Shown one piece after another: positions 4,066 through 47,253 of a stretch of DNA of 64,000 nt. The notes under the pieces are model-generated. The model was given only the letters and a program-made list of their open reading frames with translations, was not told the DNA's origin and searched no databases. The first letter of the stretch is position 1, and each line of letters begins with the position of its first letter. A program made the translations under genes and the position numbers. Source of the DNA: Streptomyces camelliae (GTDB lineage Bacteria; Actinomycetota; Actinomycetes; Streptomycetales; Streptomycetaceae); assembly GCF_027625935.1 (NCBI RefSeq), contig NZ_CP115300.1, forward strand, positions 124,001 to 188,000, read 5' to 3'.

Positions 4066-4735
4066 GTTCCTGCTGCTCGGCGACTCCCACGCCGGACCGA
4101 TCGGCCGAGCGGCCCGGAACGCGGGCATCCCGTTCCAGGGCGGCCCCATCGGCGCCGGCCGGGAGTTCACCGACAGCTTCTTCACCCCCCGCGACACCCC
4201 CGGCGGCCCCGACGTCGTCTTCCGCGCCGACGAGGCCGAGGAACACTACCGTCGCTTCCTCAAGGAACTCGGCGTCGACGCACTCGCCGGGCTGGGCGTC
4301 CCGCTGGTCGCGACGTTCGGTTTCTGCGCGCACTTCGTCGCGCTGCGGGAGAACTGGGACCTCTACCGCGACCGCGCGGGTACCGTCGTGCCGGGTTTCC
4401 TCGCCGGACCCCTGTTCGACGCCATCGTGCGCGCCGCCGTGCGGGACGCCCTCGCCTTCTACGCACACGCCGTAGGCCTCGGGCTGCGTGTCCTCGCGGT
4501 GATGCCGCCGCAGCGGGTCCCCGGCCAGTCCGATCCGGCGGTGTTCATGGCCGCGCAGGAAAGCATCCGGCTGGCCGTGACAGACCTCGGGGTCGAGATC
4601 GTGGACCTGCGCCACCGGACCACCGGTCCGGACGGACTGCAACGCCCCGAGCTGTGCGAGGCCGACGACGAGATCCACGGCAACCTCGCCTTCGGCCGCA
4701 TCATCCTCTCCGAACTGCTCGACCGAGGCCTGTAA
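4019..4735 (+). CDS. SGNH-hydrolase-like protein
   Basis: 238 aa, starting inside the 3' end of the GSCFA gene (47-bp overlap). LLLGDSHAGPIG near residues 17-28 is the block I GDS motif of SGNH/GDSL hydrolases, and a C-terminal DDEIHGN stretch could supply the Asp-His pair. No signal peptide is seen, so it is probably cytoplasmic. Overlapping genes imply coupled translation with the polyketide synthase and GSCFA protein, so it is probably a tailoring or acyl-transfer enzyme of the same pathway. ATG 4019 is the longest sensible start; GTG 4028 is an alternative. Confidence 0.75.
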   Translation: MPPVRTPSLTTTAPARFLLLGDSHAGPIGRAARNAGIPFQGGPIGAGREFTDSFFTPRDTPGGPDVVFRADEAEEHYRRFLKELGVDALAGLGVPLVATFGFCAHFVALRENWDLYRDRAGTVVPGFLAGPLFDAIVRAAVRDALAFYAHAVGLGLRVLAVMPPQRVPGQSDPAVFMAAQESIRLAVTDLGVEIVDLRHRTTGPDGLQRPELCEADDEIHGNLAFGRIILSELLDRGL

Positions 4736-4754
4736 CCCCCCTCTGGAGGACGTC

Positions 4755-5627
4755 ATGGAGCGATACGAACGCGAAGCACTGGAAGCGGTGACCACGCGTC
4801 CCGTGTACCCCTACCGCACCCTCACGGTCGAGCGGATCACCCCCGTGCTGGGCGCGGAGGTCTCGGGCGTGGACCTGTCCAAGGAGATCCCGGCCGAGCA
4901 ACTGGACGAGATACGCACCGCCTTCCTCGACCACCACGTCCTCGTCTTCCACGGCCAGACGATCAACGCCGAGGACCACAAGCGTTTCGCCGGCGTCTTC
5001 GGCGAGCTGCGTCCCGTCAACCCGCCGCCACCCGAGGGCGACCCCTACATCCTGGAGATCCGCACGACGTCGGCCGCCGCGAACGTGGCGGGCAACGGCT
5101 GGCACGCCGACGGCACCGCCGACGCGGAACCGTCGCTCGGGTCGATGCTCTACATCACCGAGATCCCCGAGCCGGGCTGCGGCGGCGACACTCTCTTCGC
5201 CAACATGCACCTCGCCTACGAGATGCTCTCGCCGGCCATGCGCTCCCTGCTGGACCCGCTCACCGCCATCCACGACGGCGCCCAGGCCCTGGCGGGCTAC
5301 ACCCCGCCCGCGGACTACGTCATCCCCAAGAGCGAACACCCGCTCGTCGCCCGGCACCCCGAGACCGACCGCAAGCTGCTCTACGTCAACAAGGCCTACA
5401 CCAGCCGCATCCCGCAGCTCTCCGCCCAGGAGAGCCAGGCCCTCCTCGACATGCTCTTCGACATCGTCGCCCGCAGACCGGTCCTGCACTGCCGCGTGCG
5501 CTGGACCCCGGGCACCCTCGTCTTCTGGGACAACCGCTGCGTCCAGCACCACGCGACGTACGACTACTACCCCTACGCCCGCTACGGCCAGCGCGTCGCC
5601 ATCAACGGCGGCCCCGTCAAGGGCTGA
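4755..5627 (+). CDS. TauD/TfdA-family Fe(II)/2-oxoglutarate dioxygenase
   Basis: 290 aa, ATG preceded by a strong GGAGGA at 4745-4750. It contains the metal-binding HxD pair in WHADGT (H117, D119) and the distal histidine in WDNRCVQHHATYDYY (about H265), followed by RYGQR, whose arginine would bind 2-oxoglutarate. Length is usual for the family. Members hydroxylate, desaturate or halogenate-like-rearrange small substrates. As last gene of the operon 20 bp behind the SGNH-like gene, it most likely oxidises the polyketide product or a building block; the substrate is not evident. Confidence 0.92.
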   Translation: MERYEREALEAVTTRPVYPYRTLTVERITPVLGAEVSGVDLSKEIPAEQLDEIRTAFLDHHVLVFHGQTINAEDHKRFAGVFGELRPVNPPPPEGDPYILEIRTTSAAANVAGNGWHADGTADAEPSLGSMLYITEIPEPGCGGDTLFANMHLAYEMLSPAMRSLLDPLTAIHDGAQALAGYTPPADYVIPKSEHPLVARHPETDRKLLYVNKAYTSRIPQLSAQESQALLDMLFDIVARRPVLHCRVRWTPGTLVFWDNRCVQHHATYDYYPYARYGQRVAINGGPVKG

Positions 5628-5638
5628 CGGCACGATCC

Positions 5639-5680
5639 GGTGAGGCGTCGTCGCCTGCTCACGGGGTGGCGCGCCTCACC
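5639..5680. terminator. Inverted repeat between convergent genes
   Basis: A 9-bp perfect inverted repeat (5639-5647 with 5672-5680, GGTGAGGCG/CGCCTCACC) lies between the convergent dioxygenase and the 5659-6351 gene. It overlaps the last codons of the minus-strand gene. The loop is long (24 bases), so function as a shared terminator is only plausible. Confidence 0.35.
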
Positions 5681-6351
5681 GCGTCGGCGAGGCCGTCCCG
5701 AAGGAGCACCCGGGCCTCCTCGGCCGCCGGCCCCGCAGTGCCGTCCGGTCCCGCGTACGCGGCGATCCAGGCCCGCACCACGGCGAACGGCCAGGCGCGG
5801 GCGTACTCCTGGGCATCCCCGGCAGCGAAGGCACCTGCGTACGCGGCGGCGTTCGCAATGGCGTTCGCCTCCGCGTGCACGCGATCGCTCACCTCCGTGT
5901 TCATGCGCGCGTAGGTCTCGCCATAGCGGTCGGCCTCGTCCGCGGACCAGCCGCGCGAGCGCGCGAAGGAGGCCGCGGCCGACGACGCCCGCGCGTGCAC
6001 CCGCAGGCGGGGATAGGCCATCCGGTACACCTCGCGCAACGCCGGCTCCAGCACCGCCGACCACACGTCCTCAGCGATCGGTTCGCCGGCTGCCGCGCGC
6101 GCGTGTACGGCGCGCAGGGCGTCGTGCGGGGCAGCGTCCGCAACGTGCCGGGCTACTGCCTCAGCGATGAGATCCGCCACCGCACCGGCATGCCAGTGGT
6201 GGACCGCGGCGAAGGGCACCCCGGCCACGGAGTGCCCCCATCCGTCGTGGACGGCCGCCGGTTCGGCGAGCACCTCGCGGACTTGGTCCAGCCAGCTCGG
6301 TACCGACACGGGCTGAAGGGCCTCGGGCAGGGCATCCGGTTCGGTCGTCAT
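5659..6351 (-). CDS. Hypothetical alanine-rich helical protein
   Basis: 230 aa. ATG 6351 was chosen over longer in-frame starts because GGAGG sits 7 bases upstream and protein-like composition begins there. The sequence is strongly alanine-rich and predicted helical, with no signal peptide or transmembrane segment; motifs such as VYRMAYPRLRVHARASS and YGETYARMNTEV are not ones I can assign. The gene converges with the biosynthetic operon and is followed upstream by insertion-sequence debris. Function unknown. Confidence 0.6.
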   Translation of the reverse strand: MTTEPDALPEALQPVSVPSWLDQVREVLAEPAAVHDGWGHSVAGVPFAAVHHWHAGAVADLIAEAVARHVADAAPHDALRAVHARAAAGEPIAEDVWSAVLEPALREVYRMAYPRLRVHARASSAAASFARSRGWSADEADRYGETYARMNTEVSDRVHAEANAIANAAAYAGAFAAGDAQEYARAWPFAVVRAWIAAYAGPDGTAGPAAEEARVLLRDGLADAVRRATP

Positions 6352-6440
6352 CGCAGCCTCCAGAACGCGTGGGCCCCATCCCTGGAACCAAGGTTGGGTG
6401 AAGAGCCGTTGGGGTTGATCCCGGGAGTGGACACCGGGTT

Positions 6441-6620
6441 TCATGCGACGAGTGACAGCGTACGTGATGTGGAATGCCGACGGCGCCGGTTGCAGTAAGC
6501 CGGCGGAACAGCTCCAGCCGAGGCTGTGCCCGTCGAGGTCCAGCGCCTTCCGTGGAGCAACTCGCGCTTGAACCCCTGGAAGAACGACTCGTCGAGGTCC
6601 TTGTTCCCGCAACCGCAGGA
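6441..6620 (-). pseudogene. IS3-family transposase, C-terminal remnant
   Basis: On the minus strand the frame reads DESFFQGFKRELLHGRRW and then, after degradation, NRRRRHSTS before a TGA at 6441-6443. This is the typical C-terminal end of an IS3-family DDE transposase (catalytic E region plus the YNRRRRHSALGY block). Only about 55 codons remain. Confidence 0.6.
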
Positions 6621-6707
6621 GGCACTTCCCAGGTGAAGCAGCGTATCGGCTTCTACCTCCGCGTCCGCATCGAGGGCGGTGCCGTGGGGTGGTCTCCCAC
6701 CGGAAAG

Positions 6708-39269: not shown

Positions 39270-39690
39270 GTGCGGCACACGAAGTCGTCCGCCGACAACT
39301 CCGGCACGGCCGCCGAGCAGTACAACGGATGCACCGCCGAGGAGTGGGCCGCGATGAGGGAGCACGCGCAGGAGCAGAAGAAGACGGCGACGCGGCGCGG
39401 TTCGCGGGCGGAAAAGGACGGCGGCAGCGGAGCCGGATGTGCTAGCGAAGATCGCCGAGATGCCGGAGGCAAACCGGGTGCTCGCCGAGCGGATCCACGC
39501 CATCGTCAAAGCCGTCGCTCCGGACCTCACGCCCAAGCTCTGATACGGGATGCCCGCGTACGCCAGAGAGGGCAAGGTCATCTGCCCCTTCCAGAGCGCG
39601 CAGAAGTTCAAGTCGAGGTATGCCACGCTCGGCTTCAGCGACCAGGCAGCACTCGACGACGGCGCCATGTGGCCGTCCGCCTACCCCGCG
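39270..39690 (+). pseudogene. DUF1801-family protein, broken
   Basis: GTG 39270 with GAGAGGAAA upstream starts YNGCTAEEWAAMREHAQEQK. A frameshift near 39425 leads to LAKIAEMPEANRVLAERIHA and AVAPDLTPKL, where a TGA at 39541-39543 replaces the Trp of the family motif PKLWYGMPAY. The frame then continues [20 protein letters not shown] and [11 protein letters not shown] until an IS5 element joins near 39690. Members are small iron-chaperone-like (YdhG/frataxin-like) proteins. Three lesions make it non-functional. Confidence 0.75.
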
Positions 39691-39691
39691 C

Positions 39692-40406
39692 GAGCCTGCG
39701 GTGCAGCAGGAGGGTGCCGAACGCCTGCTCCACTACCCATCTCTTGGGTTCCGGGGTGAACCCTCTTGCCCCGGAACCGCGTTGGACGATCTCCACGTCG
39801 ATGCCGAGGCGGGCGCCGTGCTCAACCACAGCCTGCTTGAACCCGGCGTCCACCCAGCTCTTGGTCACCGTGGGTGCGGTGGCGGCGACATTGTCCAGCA
39901 GGGCGATACCGATCGCGTTGTCGTGCATGCTCGCGGCGACCACGAGCACGGCGATGATCAGGCCGAGGGCGTCGGTGGCGATGCCCCGCTTGCGGCCCGG
40001 GCTCTTCTTGCCAGGATCCAGCCCGGTCATGTCCTTCGGCGCGTTCGCCGAGGCCCGCACCGTCTGCGAGTCCAGGACGACGGCGGTGCGATCCTCGTGC
40101 CGCTTGCACATTTCGCGGGCCTGCCAGCGCAGCAGGTCGTGGATGGTCTCGGCGGTGCCGTCGTCGCGCCAGAAGGCGGAGTAGTAGTACACCGCGCTCT
40201 TGGGCGGCAGGTCGTGCGGGGGGTAGTGCCACTGGCAGCCGGTCCGGGCCTGGTAGAGGATCGCGTTGACGATCTCCCGCATCGCGTACTGGCCTTCGTG
40301 CCCACTGAACCGAGGGATGCCTCGCCTTCCAGGCCGCGATGACCGGCCAGATCAGCTCCCATGCCTCATCCGCCAGATCACTCGGGTACGGCTGGCGCCC
40401 GCTCAC
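39692..40406 (-). pseudogene. IS5-family transposase, frameshifted and 3' truncated
   Basis: From ATG 40406: PSDLADEAWELIWPVIAAWK. A shift near 40300 leads to AMREIVNAILYQARTGCQWH, KSAVYYYSAFWRDDGTAETI, VLDSQTVRASANAPKDMTGL (first Asp), RKRGIATDALGLIIAVLVVA and [17 protein letters not shown]. The last about 20 residues are missing where it meets the DUF1801 gene. This is a different IS5 subgroup from the element at 10045. Confidence 0.85.
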
Positions 40407-40589
40407 GCTCCCCAGCAGACCGCGCCACCAGCCGACCGCGAAGTCCAGGAACCGGACAAACCATACTCAAGCGCAACGAGAACCGCCGGACACTCGCAGA
40501 ACACCCACTGAGTTATCGCGGGCACCCTGCTGTACTGGCGCAGTCCCGCCGAGCCCCGATACCGATGCCGGTCGTCTCCTGGTTGCCGT

Positions 40590-41579
40590 TTACAGCCAGC
40601 CGCGTTGGGCGGCTTTGAGACCTGCCTCGAAGCGGCTGCTGGCGCCGAGGCGTTCCATGAGGGTGGCCATTTGGCGGCGGACGGTGCGCAGTCCGATGCC
40701 GAGTCGTTTGGCGGCGGCTTCGTCGGTCATGCCGCGGGCCAGGAGGGTGAGCAGTTCACGTTCGGCGGGTGTGAGGCCGGTGCCGGTGTCTCGGGTGGTT
40801 GCGGCGCCGAGGGGGACGGCGGTCGCCCAGGCCTGTTCGTAGACGGCGACGAGCGAGGCGACGATCCCCGGCTCGCGGGTGCACAGCGCGCCGGCCCTGG
40901 TGTCGGCGGGGTCGATGGGGACGATCGCGGTTTCGCGGTCGAAGATCAGCATGCGGGGTGGTAGCAGCGGCGCGGTGCGGACCTCTCCGCCGTTCTTGGT
41001 CAGCCAGTGCGCGTAGTCGTGTGTAGCCTGGTCGTTGCGGACGCTTTCCTGGTAGAGCGTGAGGATCGCGATGCCGCGGCCGAGCGCATCGGCGTCCAGT
41101 GGGCGTGAGGCGTCCAGGCTGGCCTGGGACTGGGCGCCGCCCGGCATCACCGACAGGCACTCGCGCTGCAGTTCCTTGGCGAGGAACTCCAGTTTGCCCT
41201 CGATGGCGTCCATCCCCACCAGGCGTTCCGCACCGTTCACGGGCGTGTTGGGGGCGAGCGCGCCGAATGCCGCGACGGCTTCGGCGGCTGCGGCCTTGCT
41301 CGCGGCCAGTTCCTGGGCCCGGCGCGCCAGATCCGCTTCCTGTCGGCGGACCATCAGATCGAGGGCTACTTGCGGGCTGACGACACGCAAGCCCCCTGGG
41401 ATGTCCCGCGATGGGCGCACGAACGCGCGGTCGGCCAGTTCGTCCAGGGCTGCGCGGACTTCTTGTTCCGTCAGGCCTGTGACGGCCTGGAGGTCGGACA
41501 AGTTCGACCGCGGATGCCGCAGCAAAGCCGCGTACACCGTCTCGACCACCGGTTCCAGCCCCAGAACACCGAGCACCAT
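40590..41579 (-). CDS. LuxR-type regulator with TrmB-like N-terminus
   Basis: 329 aa. The N-terminal winged helix resembles TrmB/helix-turn-helix domains (VYAALLRHPRSNLSDLQAVT and GLTEQEVRAALDELADR). A long helix and a PLD-like sensor region (about 110-240, SVMPGGAQSQASLDASRPLD) follow, then a C-terminal LuxR/GerE domain: LTPAERELLTLLARGMTDEA and RTVRRQMATLMERLGASSRF. Such two-HTH regulators are common in Streptomyces and often orphan. It is divergent from a tiny secreted protein gene with a palindromic site between them, suggesting it controls, and perhaps responds to, that peptide. Confidence 0.9.
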   Translation of the reverse strand: MVLGVLGLEPVVETVYAALLRHPRSNLSDLQAVTGLTEQEVRAALDELADRAFVRPSRDIPGGLRVVSPQVALDLMVRRQEADLARRAQELAASKAAAAEAVAAFGALAPNTPVNGAERLVGMDAIEGKLEFLAKELQRECLSVMPGGAQSQASLDASRPLDADALGRGIAILTLYQESVRNDQATHDYAHWLTKNGGEVRTAPLLPPRMLIFDRETAIVPIDPADTRAGALCTREPGIVASLVAVYEQAWATAVPLGAATTRDTGTGLTPAERELLTLLARGMTDEAAAKRLGIGLRTVRRQMATLMERLGASSRFEAGLKAAQRGWL

Positions 41580-41698
41580 GATTACCGCACCCCCCGTGCG
41601 TCGTGACGCCTGCAGACCACCGTGCAGCCGATGATCCTCTCAGTGCCCGGCCGACCGCGCAACGCCTGGCGGGCGAACGGCATCGTACGCTCGGGGCA

Positions 41699-41727
41699 GG
41701 CACCAAGGTGCCGGGCAGCTTGGTGCC
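41699..41727. promoter_or_regulatory. Inverted-repeat operator candidate
   Basis: GGCACCAAG (41699-41707) and CTTGGTGCC (41719-41727) form a perfect 9-bp inverted repeat with an 11-base spacer; the left half also forms its own palindrome GGCACCAAGGTGCC (41699-41712). It sits 120 bases upstream of the LuxR start and 130 bases upstream of the peptide gene, the right place for binding by the regulator. Confidence 0.55.
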
Positions 41728-41779
41728 CAGCTGACCCCGTTCCCCCGGGCCCGAACCGCAGGGCATTGTTTTCTCAACG

Positions 41780-41804
41780 CGCCGGACAGACAGATCGTCC
41801 GGCG
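41780..41804. promoter_or_regulatory. Second inverted repeat ahead of the peptide gene
   Basis: CGCCGGAC (41780-41787) / GTCCGGCG (41797-41804), a perfect 8-bp repeat with a 9-base spacer, about 53 bases before the start of the peptide gene. It could be a second operator or a hairpin in the leader RNA. Confidence 0.4.
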
Positions 41805-41856
41805 ACGGACCATCAAATCCAAGAATCCCATTCAGAAATGGATCCGGGGGCCTGTC

Positions 41857-42057
41857 ATGTCGAAAATCGTTCGCACCGTAGTGATTGCCGTGCTCGTCGC
41901 CACTCCCGCGTTCGGGGCAGCCGCCACCACCGCCTCGACAAGAACCCTCGGCGCCGGCATCGGATGGGACCAGGCCCCCACTTCGGCAGCGGCAGCAGGC
42001 ACCCCTGTCACCTCCGCGGCGACACCGTCGCAGGCGGACGGCATCGGCTGGGACTAG
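41857..42057 (+). CDS. Small secreted protein with duplicated GIGWD motif
   Basis: 66 aa from ATG 41857 with GGGGG about 8 bases upstream. Residues 1-27 are a signal peptide (MSKIVRTVVIAVLVATPAFG, then AAATTAST). The mature part is about 40 residues of Ala/Thr/Ser/Pro spacer carrying GAGIGWDQ near 32-38 and ending exactly with DGIGWD. The repeat of the pentapeptide, once internally and once as the C-terminus, and the adjacent LuxR gene suggest a processed extracellular signal or RiPP-like precursor. No modification enzyme or protease gene is adjacent. No family recognised. Confidence 0.7.
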   Translation: MSKIVRTVVIAVLVATPAFGAAATTASTRTLGAGIGWDQAPTSAAAAGTPVTSAATPSQADGIGWD

Positions 42058-42064
42058 GAGAGCC

Positions 42065-42334
42065 ATGCACCTCGTCCACCTCGTCCTCACCCGCCCCGAC
42101 CTGCCCCAGCCCAGCTCGGCCGACGCCGAGCGCGTCCTGGACACCCTGTGGGCCCACCTGGATCCCCGCTCCGGCATCGAACACATCCGGACCCGGCCCC
42201 GGGCCAGCGGAGTAGATCTCGGCCTCTTCTTCAGCGGCGACGGAAGCGGAACCGGCGGCGCCCCGCAGACCGCAGCCGCGATCGACCACCTCCTTGCCTC
42301 CCTCCCCGGCTGGACCGCGACACCTCCGCAGTGA
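42065..42334 (+). CDS. Hypothetical protein coupled to the secreted peptide
   Basis: 89 aa, starting 7 bases after the peptide gene stop with GGAGAG 4 bases before ATG, so the two are one operon. The sequence (MHLVHLVLTRPDLPQPSSAD, VLDTLWAHLDPRSGIEHIR, SGVDLGLFFSGDGSGTGGAP, IDHLLASLPGWT) looks like a compact alpha/beta cytoplasmic protein with no signal peptide. Family not recognised; a role in production, immunity or signalling with the peptide is inference from position only. Confidence 0.65.
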   Translation: MHLVHLVLTRPDLPQPSSADAERVLDTLWAHLDPRSGIEHIRTRPRASGVDLGLFFSGDGSGTGGAPQTAAAIDHLLASLPGWTATPPQ

Positions 42335-42508
42335 ACGCGCACGCCCAGCAAATCCCGCTGAAGCCTTTCGCTGGGCATCGTGTCAGAACTCCCTGGACAC
42401 GAATTCCTCACTCGGGACAACCCGGTGTCCTTTGTCCCGCGCCTCTTGCCGCACCGCCGACGACGGTAACGCCACACCTCACCTTCACCACGATTCGGGG
42501 GAACACCC

Positions 42509-44515
42509 ATGTCCAAGCCCAGCCCCGCTCGCGCCCTTTCCCGCCTTGCCCTCGTGACCGCGACCGCGGTCGTCGCCGGCCTGTGCGCGGTGGCGCCCGC
42601 CTCCGCGGACACCGGCACGTACGACAACAGCGGGACCGAGACACCGACCTCCACGGGCACGCTCGGCACCGGGGTCGGCCAGAAGCTGACCGGCGCCCAG
42701 ATGGTCCAGCGCGCCAGAGACTGGGTCAGTCACCGGGTCAGCTACGACCAGTCCCAGTCGTTCTCGGACAGTGAGGTCGGCGGCCCCTACCGCACCGACT
42801 GCGGCGGCCTGGTCGACATGGCGTGGCAGCTCACCAGCAGCCCGGTCGTGACCACGCCCTCGCCCGGCATCGACTCCTCCACCTACAGCACCAAGCTCAC
42901 CAGCTGGTCCCAGCTCCAGCCCGGCGACGCCCTCGCCGTGCCCGGCAAGCACATCAACCTCTTCGCCGGCTGGACCAACCAGGCCAACGGCGACTTCACC
43001 TACATCGCTGAGGACAATCCCGGCGTCCCCACCGGCGAGTATCCCGCCAACATCCACGACGACAGTATCGACGGCTACGCCCCCTCCTCGTTCGAACTGC
43101 TGCGCTCCAACAACCTCGCTCCCGCCATCCCGGCGAATTTCAACGTCACCATCGACGCCAACGGCGCAGCCCTCGCGTCCGGCCAGACCGTCTCCGGTAC
43201 GGTGAATCTCACCGCCGTCGCCAGCTCCCAGGGCGTCATCAACTCCCTGAGCTACACCATTACCGGACCGAGCGGCACCCAGACGATCAACGGCGGCACC
43301 GGCGCGAACAACTACGCGCAGGCCTGGAACACCACCGGCCTGCCCAACGGCACCTACACCATCTCGGTGAACGCGAACGAGATCGACGGACAGAACCACA
43401 CCTATGGACCGGTCACCGTCACGGTCGGCAACGGCAACACCTCGGACAGCACCTGGTCGGTGTACAACCCTGACACCAAGACGATGACCCTGTTCGGCCT
43501 CGGGTCCGGCGGCCACCTCGGCCTCACCAAGACCACAAACGGCGGAGCAAGCTGGAGCAACTGGACCGAGGCCAACGCGTACTGGACGCTGCAGGGCACA
43601 CCCGACGCGGTGTACGACCCGGACGCCAAGATCACGATGCTCTTCGCCCGCGGGTCGGCCAACGGCGCCATGGGCATCAGCACGAGCAGCAACAACGGTG
43701 CCAGCTGGTCGAACTGGACCCAGGTGAACGCCTACTGGAGCAACTTCAAGGGCGACGCCTCGGCCGTGTACAACCCCGACACCAAGAAGGTCACCGTGTT
43801 CGCACGTGGCGGAGATGGCAAGATCGGCTACACCCAGAGCAGCAACGCCGGCGCGAGCTGGTCGAACTGGGCCGAGGTCAACGCATACTGGAACAACTTC
43901 GCCGGCGACCCCCACGTGATCTACAACCCCACCACCAAGCGGATGACGGTGTTCGCCCGCGGCGGGGATGGCAAGATCGGTTACACCCAGAGCAGCAACG
44001 ACGGAGCCAGCTGGTCGAACTGGGCCGAGGTCAACGCATACTGGAACAACTTCGCCGGCGACCCCCACGTGGTCCTCAACCCGGACACCCACCAGATGAC
44101 GGTCTTCGCGCGCGGCGGGGACGGCAAGATCGGCTACACCCAGAGCAGCAACGACGGAGCCAGCTGGTCGAACTGGGCCGAGGTCAACGCATACTGGAAC
44201 AACTTCGCCGGCGACCCCCACCCGGTGTACAACGCCGGCACGAAGACGATCTCGCTGCTCGCGCGCGGCGGCGACGGCAAGATCGGCTACACCCAGAGCA
44301 GCAACGACGGAGCCAGCTGGTCGAACTGGGCCGAGGTCAACGCGTACTGGAACAACTTCGCCGGCGACCCCACTGCGACCTACGACCCGGACACCACCCA
44401 GAACACGGTCTTCGCGCTCGGTAGCGGCGGCCACATGGGCTACACCCAGAGCAGCGGAGGCGGCTGGTCGAACTGGGCCGAGGTCAACGCATACTGGACG
44501 CTGATCGGGTCCTGA
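42509..44515 (+). CDS. Secreted NlpC/P60-like protein with Ig-like domain and seven-repeat propeller
   Basis: 668 aa. Signal peptide residues 1-33 (VVAGLCAVAPASA). Residues about 55-205 resemble an NlpC/P60-type hydrolase, with the nucleophile in YRTDCGGLVDMAW (Cys near 98) and His in PGKHINLFAGW (near 147). An Ig-like domain spans about 212-310. The C-terminal 355 residues are seven repeats of a 49-52-residue unit closing with WSNWxExNAYW, the pattern of PLL-like/sialidase-type beta-propellers that bind glycans. Repeats 3-6 are nearly identical even in DNA. It probably binds cell-wall or glycan targets and cleaves peptide or amide bonds. A strong terminator follows. Confidence 0.85.
   Translation: MSKPSPARALSRLALVTATAVVAGLCAVAPASADTGTYDNSGTETPTSTGTLGTGVGQKLTGAQMVQRARDWVSHRVSYDQSQSFSDSEVGGPYRTDCGGLVDMAWQLTSSPVVTTPSPGIDSSTYSTKLTSWSQLQPGDALAVPGKHINLFAGWTNQANGDFTYIAEDNPGVPTGEYPANIHDDSIDGYAPSSFELLRSNNLAPAIPANFNVTIDANGAALASGQTVSGTVNLTAVASSQGVINSLSYTITGPSGTQTINGGTGANNYAQAWNTTGLPNGTYTISVNANEIDGQNHTYGPVTVTVGNGNTSDSTWSVYNPDTKTMTLFGLGSGGHLGLTKTTNGGASWSNWTEANAYWTLQGTPDAVYDPDAKITMLFARGSANGAMGISTSSNNGASWSNWTQVNAYWSNFKGDASAVYNPDTKKVTVFARGGDGKIGYTQSSNAGASWSNWAEVNAYWNNFAGDPHVIYNPTTKRMTVFARGGDGKIGYTQSSNDGASWSNWAEVNAYWNNFAGDPHVVLNPDTHQMTVFARGGDGKIGYTQSSNDGASWSNWAEVNAYWNNFAGDPHPVYNAGTKTISLLARGGDGKIGYTQSSNDGASWSNWAEVNAYWNNFAGDPTATYDPDTTQNTVFALGSGGHMGYTQSSGGGWSNWAEVNAYWTLIGS
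43800..44380 (+). repeat. Near-identical 150-bp tandem repeats within the propeller
   Basis: Four consecutive copies share long identical blocks (encoding GKIGYTQSSN, GASWSNWAEVNAYWNNFAGD), spaced 147-150 bases. The outer three repeats of the propeller are more diverged. The identity points to recent amplification or gene conversion. Confidence 0.75.
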
Positions 44516-44567
44516 TCCATCAACTCCGGCGCCGCCGCACACATGATCGCTGGCCGAGCCCCCTCCC

Positions 44568-44606
44568 CGTGTCCTGCGGCTCCCGACCCGGGAGCCGCAG
44601 GACACG
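44568..44606 (+). terminator. Strong intrinsic terminator
   Basis: Perfect 17-bp stem CGTGTCCTGCGGCTCCC (44568-44584) / GGGAGCCGCAGGACACG (44590-44606) with a 5-base loop, followed by GCGTTTCT. It lies 53 bases after the propeller gene. Confidence 0.85.
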
Positions 44607-45470
44607 GCGTTTCTACAGGTCGTTTCGGTGGCGAGGCCGGGAACTCTCCCGAAGCTGACGCCCCCGCGCCCTCCGGGCCCCGGCGCAGAGCCCGTGCTCT
44701 GCGCGACGGCCTCGACCTCGACGCCCTCGCGGCCCGCCACGCGCGGCTACGACGCGTACGCCTACCTGGCCGCCATGGCCACCAGCCACCCCTCCCTCGG
44801 ACAGCTCCCGCCGTTCCGCGCGAATGGTCCCCTCACGCGACCGGTCTTGGCGGCTTCGGTGCCCACCGTCGCTCGCGCGTCCTCCACCTGCCCCCCCTGC
44901 TGCGGCACCCACACCGCAACCGGAACTGGCGGCGGCGTCCTCCCCCGCCCGGCGCGCGCCCGCTCCGCGGCCTGCTCGGGCGACCGCCAGCGCCTCCCGG
45001 ACGACTGTCCCGTGCTCGTGTACCTCACGTGCCTGAGAAGGCAGCGGGCGGAGCAGAGCCGTTCGTTCCGGCCGCTGCTGGTGCACGAGCTGGTTCTCGA
45101 CCGTCGCAGGGTCGGCGATCGGCGCCACCGATTGCGAGCAGCACATCAGGGTGGAGCAGGTGGCGGCGGCCAAGAGGCACCGCATGCCGACCGTGGCCGC
45201 TGTGGACCTGGCGGCCGGGCTCGGACCTGCTGACCGGCTGGGAACGCGTCGCGGAGATCGGCCTCAGGCCCGGGCCGCGCGGCGCCTTCAGGCACCGTTC
45301 GCGGACGCGATCCGCGCGGGAGGCGCGCAGCCGACGACCCGCACCCGCATCCGCTCACCCCGGCCGACCTCCCGCAGGGACTGTTGGCGGCCCCGTCGGG
45401 CCAGGACGTTGGCCAGGAAGTACGGAGCCTGGCCAACGCCTTGTACGACGTGGGTCACTACGGCAGGTCT
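44607..45470. other. Decayed region with traces of an unknown gene
   Basis: From about 45120 the plus strand shows protein-like pieces in shifting frames: HIRVEQVAAAKRHRMPTVAA, SDLLTGWERVAEIGLRPGPR, then LTPADLPQGLLAAPSGQDVG and QEVRSLANALYDVGHYG. They look like one gene with at least two frameshifts. I do not recognise it. The part before 45120 shows nothing I can support. Confidence 0.35.
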
Positions 45471-46216: not shown

Positions 46217-46795
46217 ATGAGCATGTCGCTGCCCACCCCGTCGTTGCGCACCGCGCGCCTTCGACTGCGTGCCTTCGAAGACGCGGATGCGAACGCCCTC
46301 TTCGCACTGCACAGCAGCGCCTACGTACTGCGCTACTGGGACGCGCCACCGTGGAGCCAACGCGTGCGCGCCGAGAAGTTCATCACGGCTTGCCGACAGA
46401 TGGCACGGGAGGGCACCGGGGCGCGGCTGGCCGTGGATCGCGTCGCCGACGGGGCGTTCATCGGCTGGTGCAGCCTGAACCGGTGGAATCCGGACTACCG
46501 CAGCGCGTCGCTCGGCTACTGCTTCGACGATGCAGCGTGGGGCCACGGCTACGCGACCGAGGCCTCGCGCGCTTTGCTGGGGTGGGCATTCGACATGCTG
46601 GACCTAAATCGCGTTCAAGCTGAGACCGATACGCGCAACGTGGCATCTGCCCGCGTGCTGGAGAAGCTCGGCTTCGTGCGTGAAGGGACGTTGCGGGAAG
46701 ACTGCGTCGTCAACGGCGAGGTCTCTGACTCGTGGGTCTACGGGCTGCTCAGGCGGGAGTGGCGGCCGTCATCCGAGCCGGTTCCCACCCACTGA
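46217..46795 (+). CDS. GNAT N-acetyltransferase, RimJ/RimL type
   Basis: 192 aa from ATG 46217 with GGGGAGGG directly upstream. It follows the RimJ/RimL pattern: RTARLRLRAFEDADANALFA at the start, IGWCSLNRWNPDYRSASLGY, then acetyl-CoA binding region AAWGHGYATEASRALLGWAF, and NVASARVLEKLGFVREG. It transfers acetyl groups to a protein N-terminus or small amine; substrate unknown. Divergent from the broken hypothetical gene. Confidence 0.92.
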   Translation: MSMSLPTPSLRTARLRLRAFEDADANALFALHSSAYVLRYWDAPPWSQRVRAEKFITACRQMAREGTGARLAVDRVADGAFIGWCSLNRWNPDYRSASLGYCFDDAAWGHGYATEASRALLGWAFDMLDLNRVQAETDTRNVASARVLEKLGFVREGTLREDCVVNGEVSDSWVYGLLRREWRPSSEPVPTH

Positions 46796-46911
46796 GTTCC
46801 GTCGCTCGGCACCCGGTATCGGCCACGCCCCAAACCACTGATCGCTGCGCCTCATCCACACACATCGACGAACCGGACGAAGGGTTACATGCCTTCTTCT
46901 CAGGCGTATGC

Positions 46912-47138
46912 ATGTGGGAACGGCTGCGGCCGTTCCCGCCGGTCAGCAACGGGCGTTGTGGTCGGTGGCGGGATCACCGGCAGGTGATCGACGGGATCCT
47001 TCACAGAGTGCGAACCGGGGTGCAGTGGCGGGATCTGCCCGAACGGTTCGGGCCGTGGATGACCGTGTATGGACGCCACCGGCTGTGGTCGGCCGACGGC
47101 ACCTGGGAACGCCTGCTGCGGCAGGTCCAGGCCGCGAC
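46912..47138 (+). pseudogene. IS5-family transposase, N-terminal remnant
   Basis: MWERLRPFPPVSNGRCGRWR, VQWRDLPERFGPWMTVYGRH and WSADGTWERLLRQVQA match the first 75 residues of the IS5 transposase at 31222. The frame then runs straight into xdhA-like sequence, so the element inserted there and lost its remainder. Confidence 0.75.
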
Positions 47139-47253
47139 CATCGCCAACGCCGTCCGGCACGCGCCCGGCGTACGCCAACGTCACCTGCCGATCCGTCCCG
47201 ACCGCATCCCTGACGGCGGGGGCCCCACGTGCTTGACCTCGCCGAGGAGTTGA
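47139..47253 (+). pseudogene. Xanthine dehydrogenase large subunit, C-terminal tip
   Basis: In frame with the IS5 remnant, ATIANAVRHAPGVRQRHLPI then RPDRIPDGG resembles the last residues of molybdopterin-binding xanthine dehydrogenase subunits (AAIANAVxxATGxRxRxLPxxP). It ends overlapping the start of the XdhC-like gene, the usual operon order. Only about 35 codons survive. Confidence 0.55.

Follow-up and report, generated by a model that had tools for sequence, protein, structure and literature searches.

The window, i.e., the whole stretch of DNA that was analysed, comprises 64,000 nucleotides of the Streptomyces camelliae genome (GCF_027625935.1, NZ_CP115300.1, positions 124,001–188,000), and all coordinates of its features are counted from its start. 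It carries a cassette in which the genes of a double-HTH regulator and of a 66-aa precursor protein are divergently oriented and separated by 277 bp (Table 1). The first-pass annotation had described this pair correctly, as well as the two GIGWD words of the precursor, one internal and one forming the exact C-terminus, and the 89-aa ORF close behind, which starts 7 nt past the precursor stop codon. The precursor signal peptide was called by eye and by our own hydropathy rule. The extent 41580–42334 initially assigned to the unit proved too narrow: the unit takes in the regulator gene and, probably, the gene of the downstream secreted protein.

Table 1. Features of the cassette in the S. camelliae window.
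Feature	Position	Strand	Description
Regulator	40590..41579	-	329 aa; N-terminal TrmB-like winged HTH, coiled coil, PLD-like sensor, C-terminal LuxR/GerE HTH
Proposed operator	41699..41727	.	9-bp inverted repeat GGCACCAAG-N11-CTTGGTGCC between the regulator and precursor genes
Second inverted repeat	41780..41804	.	8-bp arms; in the regulator–precursor gap
Precursor	41857..42057	+	66 aa; signal-peptide-like N-terminus, spacer, two GIGWD cores
Internal GIGWD core	41956..41970	+	Precursor residues 34–38, followed by QAP
C-terminal GIGWD core	42040..42054	+	Precursor residues 62–66, TAG stop directly after
89-aa protein	42065..42334	+	Ferredoxin-like fold; proposed to be in the same transcription unit as the precursor
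668-aa secreted protein	42509..44515	+	NlpC/P60-like N-terminal region (YRTDCGGLVDMAW), repeat C-terminal region; possible output gene

The locus lies no more than 190 kb from the end of the assembled 9.3-Mb contig, and genes or gene pieces of IS4/5-type transposases are present on either side of the cassette region (39635–40406 and 46732–47253).

The AlphaFold2 model of the 89-aa protein has a ferredoxin-like fold (pLDDT 89.2), and 12 homologues of this protein were found in the database. A profile of its family, iterated on the analysed loci, detected members at 82 of 96 loci, some of which are two cuts of one place; therefore, the module has three genes. In the curated libraries Pfam, NCBIfam, PHROGs, and PADLOC, the window precursor matched none of the families, and the 89-aa protein remained unnamed, with one match to a Pfam DUF at E 0.09. 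Six other precursors gave curated-family matches only below the cut-off.

One could propose that the cores are a secreted antimicrobial or RiPP product, the latter already named in the first-pass annotation, and that the regulator is a pathway switch. Some RiPPs carry repeated cores in one precursor, and the precursor of locus L068 weakly matched the NCBIfam family of FxSxx-COOH cyclophane RiPP precursors (TIGR04268, E 0.027), which, judging by the family name, are likewise short actinobacterial precursors with a C-terminal motif. However, this match (14.8 bits) is below the family cut-off of 28, and neither the window precursor nor five other precursors matched TIGR04268 at E up to 0.1. The N-terminus resembles a signal peptide where a RiPP leader would be expected, the cores contain no Cys, and Ser or Thr occur in only some of them. 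At the window locus, no maturase or other RiPP enzyme was found, either in the four cassette proteins or in eight neighbouring ORFs tested between 36.8 and 47.3 kb, and we consider such a product quite unlikely.

The precursor family and its association with the regulator

Five other proteins similar to the window precursor, with 61–91% identity, were found, from species of Streptomyces and Streptacidiphilus. All of them keep the GIGWD words together with the residues around these, except P0004, which has GIRWE inside and GIGWN at the end. Searches with peptide sequences alone reach too little: at E ≤ 10 only six of 15 candidates were retained, one of them being the query, and among 199 relatives matches at E ≤ 0.01 were obtained in nine genomes, with only the window's own being strong. 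It was the regulator and a stop-terminated DNA pattern that opened up the family.

A search of Streptomyces genomes for short secreted ORFs ending in GIGWD had been suggested in the first-pass annotation. The DNA pattern GGNATHGGNTGGRAYTRR was loose, with matches in 125 of 392 genomes of the genus, almost all via TGG instead of a stop codon. Among the matches listed, GIGW[DN] followed by a stop was found at 10 places, two of them in the window genome. Four of the eight places outside it are cassettes with a regulator homologue, 60–68% identical, and an adjoining homologue of the 89-aa protein; their precursors share little beyond GIGWD, present in three, two, two, and one copies. The other places (L051, L054, L055, and L057), without a regulator or an 89-aa homologue, were taken as chance matches. 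The other genome marked as the same species (G321) lacks both the stop-terminated pattern and any close regulator, so the cassette is accessory.

A profile was then built from six regulators and used to score a few top candidates in each genome. Among these candidates, matches at E ≤ 1e-70 were present in 181 of the 392 genomes, and 26 places scored above 500 bits, followed by a gap to 421. A lack of co-occurrence of the peptide and regulator genes elsewhere had been named as a possible refutation of a signalling module; in these Streptomyces genomes 23 of the 26 closest regulators adjoin a precursor with a repeated pentapeptide. The exceptions are L053, with a single copy, L070/L092, with one internal GLAWD, and L071/L093, where no precursor was found beside the regulator. 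The core is exactly C-terminal at 22 of the 26 loci (at one of them as a single copy), the others being L063, L070, L071, and L079; in L063 and L079 cores are present at other positions. The precursor is mostly divergent, at some 220–390 bp from the regulator start; in L063, it is located downstream of the regulator on the same strand, and in L052 and L056 other genes lie between the two. By eye, the three ORFs in between in L052, a GIGWD cassette (4333–6635), look XRE-like, ImmA-like, and membrane-protein-like, and they are on the precursor strand. The words at the close loci (GIGWD, VIGWD, VISWD, SINWD, SISWD, and TIGWD) differ between loci and are nearly always identical within a precursor.

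Some genomes contain more than one cassette. In the window genome, a second, plasmid-like copy is found at the start of the 273-kb contig C2 (L009, 5079–6024 and 6157–6351), with an intact precursor that is 72% identical to the first and has both GIGWD words. Regulator homology in L009 covers residues 1–91 only, followed by a cupin-like ORF, and the 89-aa homologue matches residues 1–60 only, so that this copy could be a signal-only remnant. In Streptacidiphilus anmyonensis, one 10-kb stretch (L010, 457–786 and 4650–5201) holds two cassettes with about 4 kb between them, one with three GIGWD in the precursor and the other with two and a regulator that aligns only in part. In S. neutrinimicus, there is one cassette, with a regulator 86% identical. 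S. venezuelae encodes a close regulator homologue, P0038, with 68% identity.

Conservation of the core within precursors

To compare the pentapeptides with their spacers, copies were compared within 48 precursors (117 copies), limited to those in which two or more copies match exactly and no letter is masked (which removed L075). Its recurrence in 48 precursors makes the repeated pentapeptide more than a chance occurrence. Of 470 core positions compared within precursors, 466 are identical, whereas agreement in the flanks is 17–36% for the six positions preceding the core and 27–67% for the six following it (30 pairs); admission by matching copies favours the core figure, and the contrast between core and flanks is the point. 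Mismatches within the core were seen only in L063 and L136, at its first residue. A lack of conservation of GIGWD, the other refutation named in the first-pass annotation, was thus not observed; between loci, the word itself varies as a family.

Codons of the copies differ at 49 synonymous and four non-synonymous places, and core identity is therefore not merely a consequence of recent duplication. Internal cores are mostly followed by [S/T/V/Q/A]-[A/V]-P, with P in the third position in 45 of about 70 cases, and this xAP-like context could mark a processing site.

The codon data also bear on the idea that the short ORF is a leader peptide, with its Trp codon serving transcription attenuation or translational coupling and its sequence not being a product. 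The position directly upstream of another gene and the Trp codon near the end would suit such a leader. However, core residues other than Trp are kept through synonymous changes, signal-peptide-like N-termini recur, the 89-aa gene of L109 is located upstream of the precursor and not downstream, and the Rfam scan of the region 40400–44800 gave no match. This explanation appears highly improbable.

A second sample and more distant regulators

A second sample comprised 293 genomes of the order, for which the prediction was fixed before the result was seen: new close regulators should adjoin a precursor with a repeated C-terminal xIxWD. Thirteen new places scored above 490 bits, and 12 of them were examined. 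At each of the 12, a divergent signal-peptide-like ORF has Trp as one of its last three residues; a repeated C-terminal core ending in WD is present in 11 and the strict xIxWD in nine, so that the advance prediction was largely met. New words were GFGWD (L132 and L143), IIGWD, and AIGWD, while L142 ends with CAGCWS.

Among 11 lower-scoring loci (L144–L154), seven encode a precursor with Trp among its final three residues, in six cases divergent; none was found in L144, L147, L148, and L149. Many, although not all, of the distant regulators face other words. Those found at least twice per precursor are DAGWQ, TTAWE, TTGWQ, DFGWQ, SLGWG, and DPGWS; further words of the lower-scoring loci are SIGWD and DIRWD, as well as single NMIWG, DYIWG, TMGWS, and others. 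NLNWD occurs three times in one lower-scoring precursor, not at the C-terminus. Precursors of L145, L146, L151, and L142, from other families of the order, end with CWE, CWG, or CWS in a CxxC-like context (IAACGACWE, ACTSCWG, and DCAGCWS) and possibly represent a Cys-containing subtype.

Altogether, a divergent C-terminal-Trp precursor was found at 59 of 89 regulator loci, a count that left out L009, L010, L052, and L056, as well as same-strand ORFs inside the regulator gene. Over all 89 loci, the divergent slot holds 69 signal-peptide-like ORFs, of which 61 carry Trp among their last three residues and 40 have a repeated Trp 5-mer; of 223 such ORFs elsewhere at the same loci, the numbers are 17 and three. 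In the background of 44 unrelated loci, with 45 signal-peptide-like ORFs, the corresponding numbers were four and one. The sole background case of a repeated Trp 5-mer, a secreted-looking protein with Gly-Trp-His repeats (GWGWGGGHHEH...; L006, G000:C1:7894212-7897310), is not linked to the family.

The hydropathy and Trp rule recognised no divergent C-terminal-Trp precursor at the remaining 30 loci; six of them (L063, L079, L097, L098, L122, and L152) carry a word elsewhere, and at some others none was found. A subgroup of regulators scoring about 390–403 bits (L082, L083, L086, L087, L147, and L149) keeps the 89-aa neighbour and has no Trp precursor by this criterion; the peptide may have been lost in this subgroup or may be of a kind that the rule does not recognise.

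Regulators were also present in 10 named plasmid records. Among the six examined, a Trp-core precursor was recognised in two, L155, with three GIGWD, and L159, ending with VTWGG, and none was recognised in L156, L157, L158, and L160. In NZ_CP108721.1, the precursor with three GIGWD (WP_266637118.1) and the 89-aa protein (WP_266637116.1) are both annotated as hypothetical.

The intergenic operator-like site

The 9-bp inverted repeat reported in the first-pass annotation is present between the two genes and is shared by related loci. Upon analysis of the intergenic regions of 37 close loci (L052, L056, L063, and L071 were left out), the best match to the window palindrome exceeded all 200 dinucleotide shuffles in 33 regions, with the consensus being derived from the same loci on which it was scored. 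For the other four, the numbers of shuffles performing as well, out of 200, were one (L133), 20 (L076), 99 (L143), and 102 (L138). The palindrome is kept across loci with different cores. Such constancy would be expected of a site bound by the regulator if the core determines the specificity for the ligand and not for DNA. The second, 8-bp repeat also exists in the window; none of the repeats listed at the 36 other loci, at most four per locus, corresponds to it, and it is probably incidental.

The regulator as a candidate receptor

The regulator comprises a winged HTH (residues ~1–66), a coiled coil (~67–112), a PLD-like/TrmB-type sensor (~113–258), and a LuxR/GerE HTH (~268–329). Pfam assigns the C-terminal GerE domain (PF00196) with 30.5 bits, above the cut-off of 23.5, while the N-terminal TrmB domain (PF01978) scores 21.3 bits, below its cut-off of 25.6; PF01978 is carried by some homologues. 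The predicted structure supports both HTH domains. The AlphaFold2 model has a mean pLDDT of 81.8 and a pTM of 0.53, which makes the arrangement of the domains uncertain. The best Foldseek matches were TrmBL2 (5bpd_C, E 2.5e-11), TrmB (3qph_A, E 3.3e-6), and the PLD-family protein Nuc (1byr, E 3.2e-5); 2f5t was also found.

The modelled winged HTH, coiled coil, and PLD-like effector domain resemble the archaeal TrmB and TrmBL2 proteins, which are sugar-responsive or chromatin regulators. Unlike them, the cassette regulator has an additional C-terminal LuxR HTH and is paired with a peptide precursor, and its ligand would presumably not be a sugar. To our knowledge, TrmB proteins are known for sugars and not for peptides, which counts against a peptide ligand. 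The C-terminal GerE HTH is shared with LuxR solos and AHL-type LuxR receptors; in contrast to these, no autoinducer-binding domain was found among Pfam matches at E up to 1, its position being occupied by the TrmB/PLD-like domain. No membrane or secreted segment is predicted in the regulator and, given also the TrmB/PLD-type fold of its sensor, a re-imported ligand would fit. We propose that the regulator is both the peptide receptor and an autoregulator.

Core types follow the regulator tree. On the tree with 67 rows, 36 changes of core type were counted versus a mean of 52.8 after shuffling (minimum 45), and on the tree of close regulators with 37 rows, 12 changes versus a mean of 23.3 (minimum 20). 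Linkage by itself would produce such co-inheritance. When pairs are matched for divergence, those with unlike cores show larger differences in the PLD domain in each of the six bins holding both kinds; this weak hint is a small effect among pairs that are not independent.

The downstream genes

Relatives of the secreted protein encoded downstream in the window were detected in 18 of 52 longer loci with an HMM built from the window protein. They are NlpC/P60-like; the window protein itself has no NlpC or CHAP match in Pfam, while CHAP was found in the neighbours of L050 and L009 and weak NlpC/P60 in L052. Tandem short motifs can act as binding epitopes, and these secreted proteins raise the alternative that the Trp pentapeptides are epitopes of a secreted partner of the cell-wall-hydrolase-like protein, such as an inhibitor, propeptide, anchor, or substrate, the regulator merely controlling the operon in response to something else. 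However, the same HMM found no hydrolase-like gene in 34 of the 52 loci, some of which end early, and in L011 the precursor and the 89-aa gene are followed by an alpha/beta-hydrolase-like ORF. Moreover, a binding partner does not predict a core located exactly at the C-terminus or its diversification along with the regulator. We consider this explanation unlikely.

Proposed mechanism

The first-pass annotation had suggested a candidate peptide signalling module. The pairing of the genes and the conservation of the core support it, and the roles of the peptide as signal and of the regulator as receptor we infer. We think it rather probable that the locus is a self-contained, autoregulated cassette for a linear pentapeptide pheromone read by the TrmB-LuxR regulator. 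The anatomy and the family are solid, while the function is a well-founded inference.

The precursor would be exported via its signal peptide, and proteases would release the identical pentapeptides, one cut being sufficient for the last copy and internal copies needing a second cut in the xAP-like spacer. The free linear peptide, in the case of S. camelliae GIGWD with a calculated monoisotopic mass of 546.2, would be taken up by an oligopeptide permease and bind the PLD-like sensor domain of the divergently encoded regulator. Bound at the palindrome, the regulator could then change the transcription of its own gene and of the precursor operon, consisting of the precursor, the 89-aa protein, and often a secreted NlpC/P60- or CHAP-like protein as a putative output, so that the cassette would signal density or kin in an autoregulated manner. 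The sequence of the core would serve as an address, with different cores defining different private channels.

Comparison with known signalling systems

Several cores per precursor are known for NprX- or Phr-type peptides. The RRNPP systems (Rap, Rgg, NprR, PlcR, and PrgX) are described in PMC10075063 as two adjacent genes, one encoding a small exported propeptide and the other a cytosolic one-component receptor. Likewise, in the cassettes the gene of a small propeptide, exported according to the hydropathy rule, adjoins the putative receptor gene. The C-terminal core of the precursor is conserved, and a mature short peptide may derive from this part. Unlike RRNPP receptors, which are TPR proteins, the cassette regulator has a TrmB/PLD-like domain between two HTHs, and its Pfam matches at E up to 1 include no TPR family. 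The cassettes also differ in their occurrence in Actinomycetota and in the third conserved gene, that of the 89-aa protein. Since a TPR receptor is absent, the cassette may work like an RRNPP system but is not one.

That short peptides can be imported as signals is accepted for Streptomyces: as presented in PMC5650626 and PMC11303876, the BldK oligopeptide permease imports an extracellular signal needed for aerial growth. A link between this signal and the cassette cores is speculation.

We found no description of this family in the open-access literature; subscription papers and bioRxiv were outside the scope of the search, so one may exist. The large family of putative peptide signals, whose genes mostly face that of a regulator, is thus apparently undescribed. 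Extending the interpretation beyond the single locus, we lean, with only slight confidence, towards the view that Streptomyces and its relatives use a large polymorphic set of linear Trp-pentapeptide pheromones ([x][x][x]W[D/Q/G/S/E]), many of them tandem, each with its own TrmB-PLD-LuxR receptor, partly plasmid-borne, and a possible source of peptides for BldK-type permeases.

Streptomyces are the makers of many antibiotics and are best known for gamma-butyrolactone-type signals. If the proposed function is correct, the cassettes would represent a ribosomal peptide quorum-sensing family, with receptors unrelated to RRNPP, in a phylum whose signalling is believed to depend chiefly on small diffusible molecules; signals of Actinomycetota are characterised in PMC10075063 as typically small molecules made by enzymes. 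It would be a genetically encoded peptide language, in which many pairs could be tested with a synthetic peptide of five residues. Since the cores are short and variable between loci, receptor specificity and private channels are testable by core swaps. TrmB/PLD-like regulators would gain a class of peptide ligands, and cheap inducers for silent operons would become available. Finally, the old question of which gene-encoded peptides Streptomyces imports as developmental signals would become directly testable.
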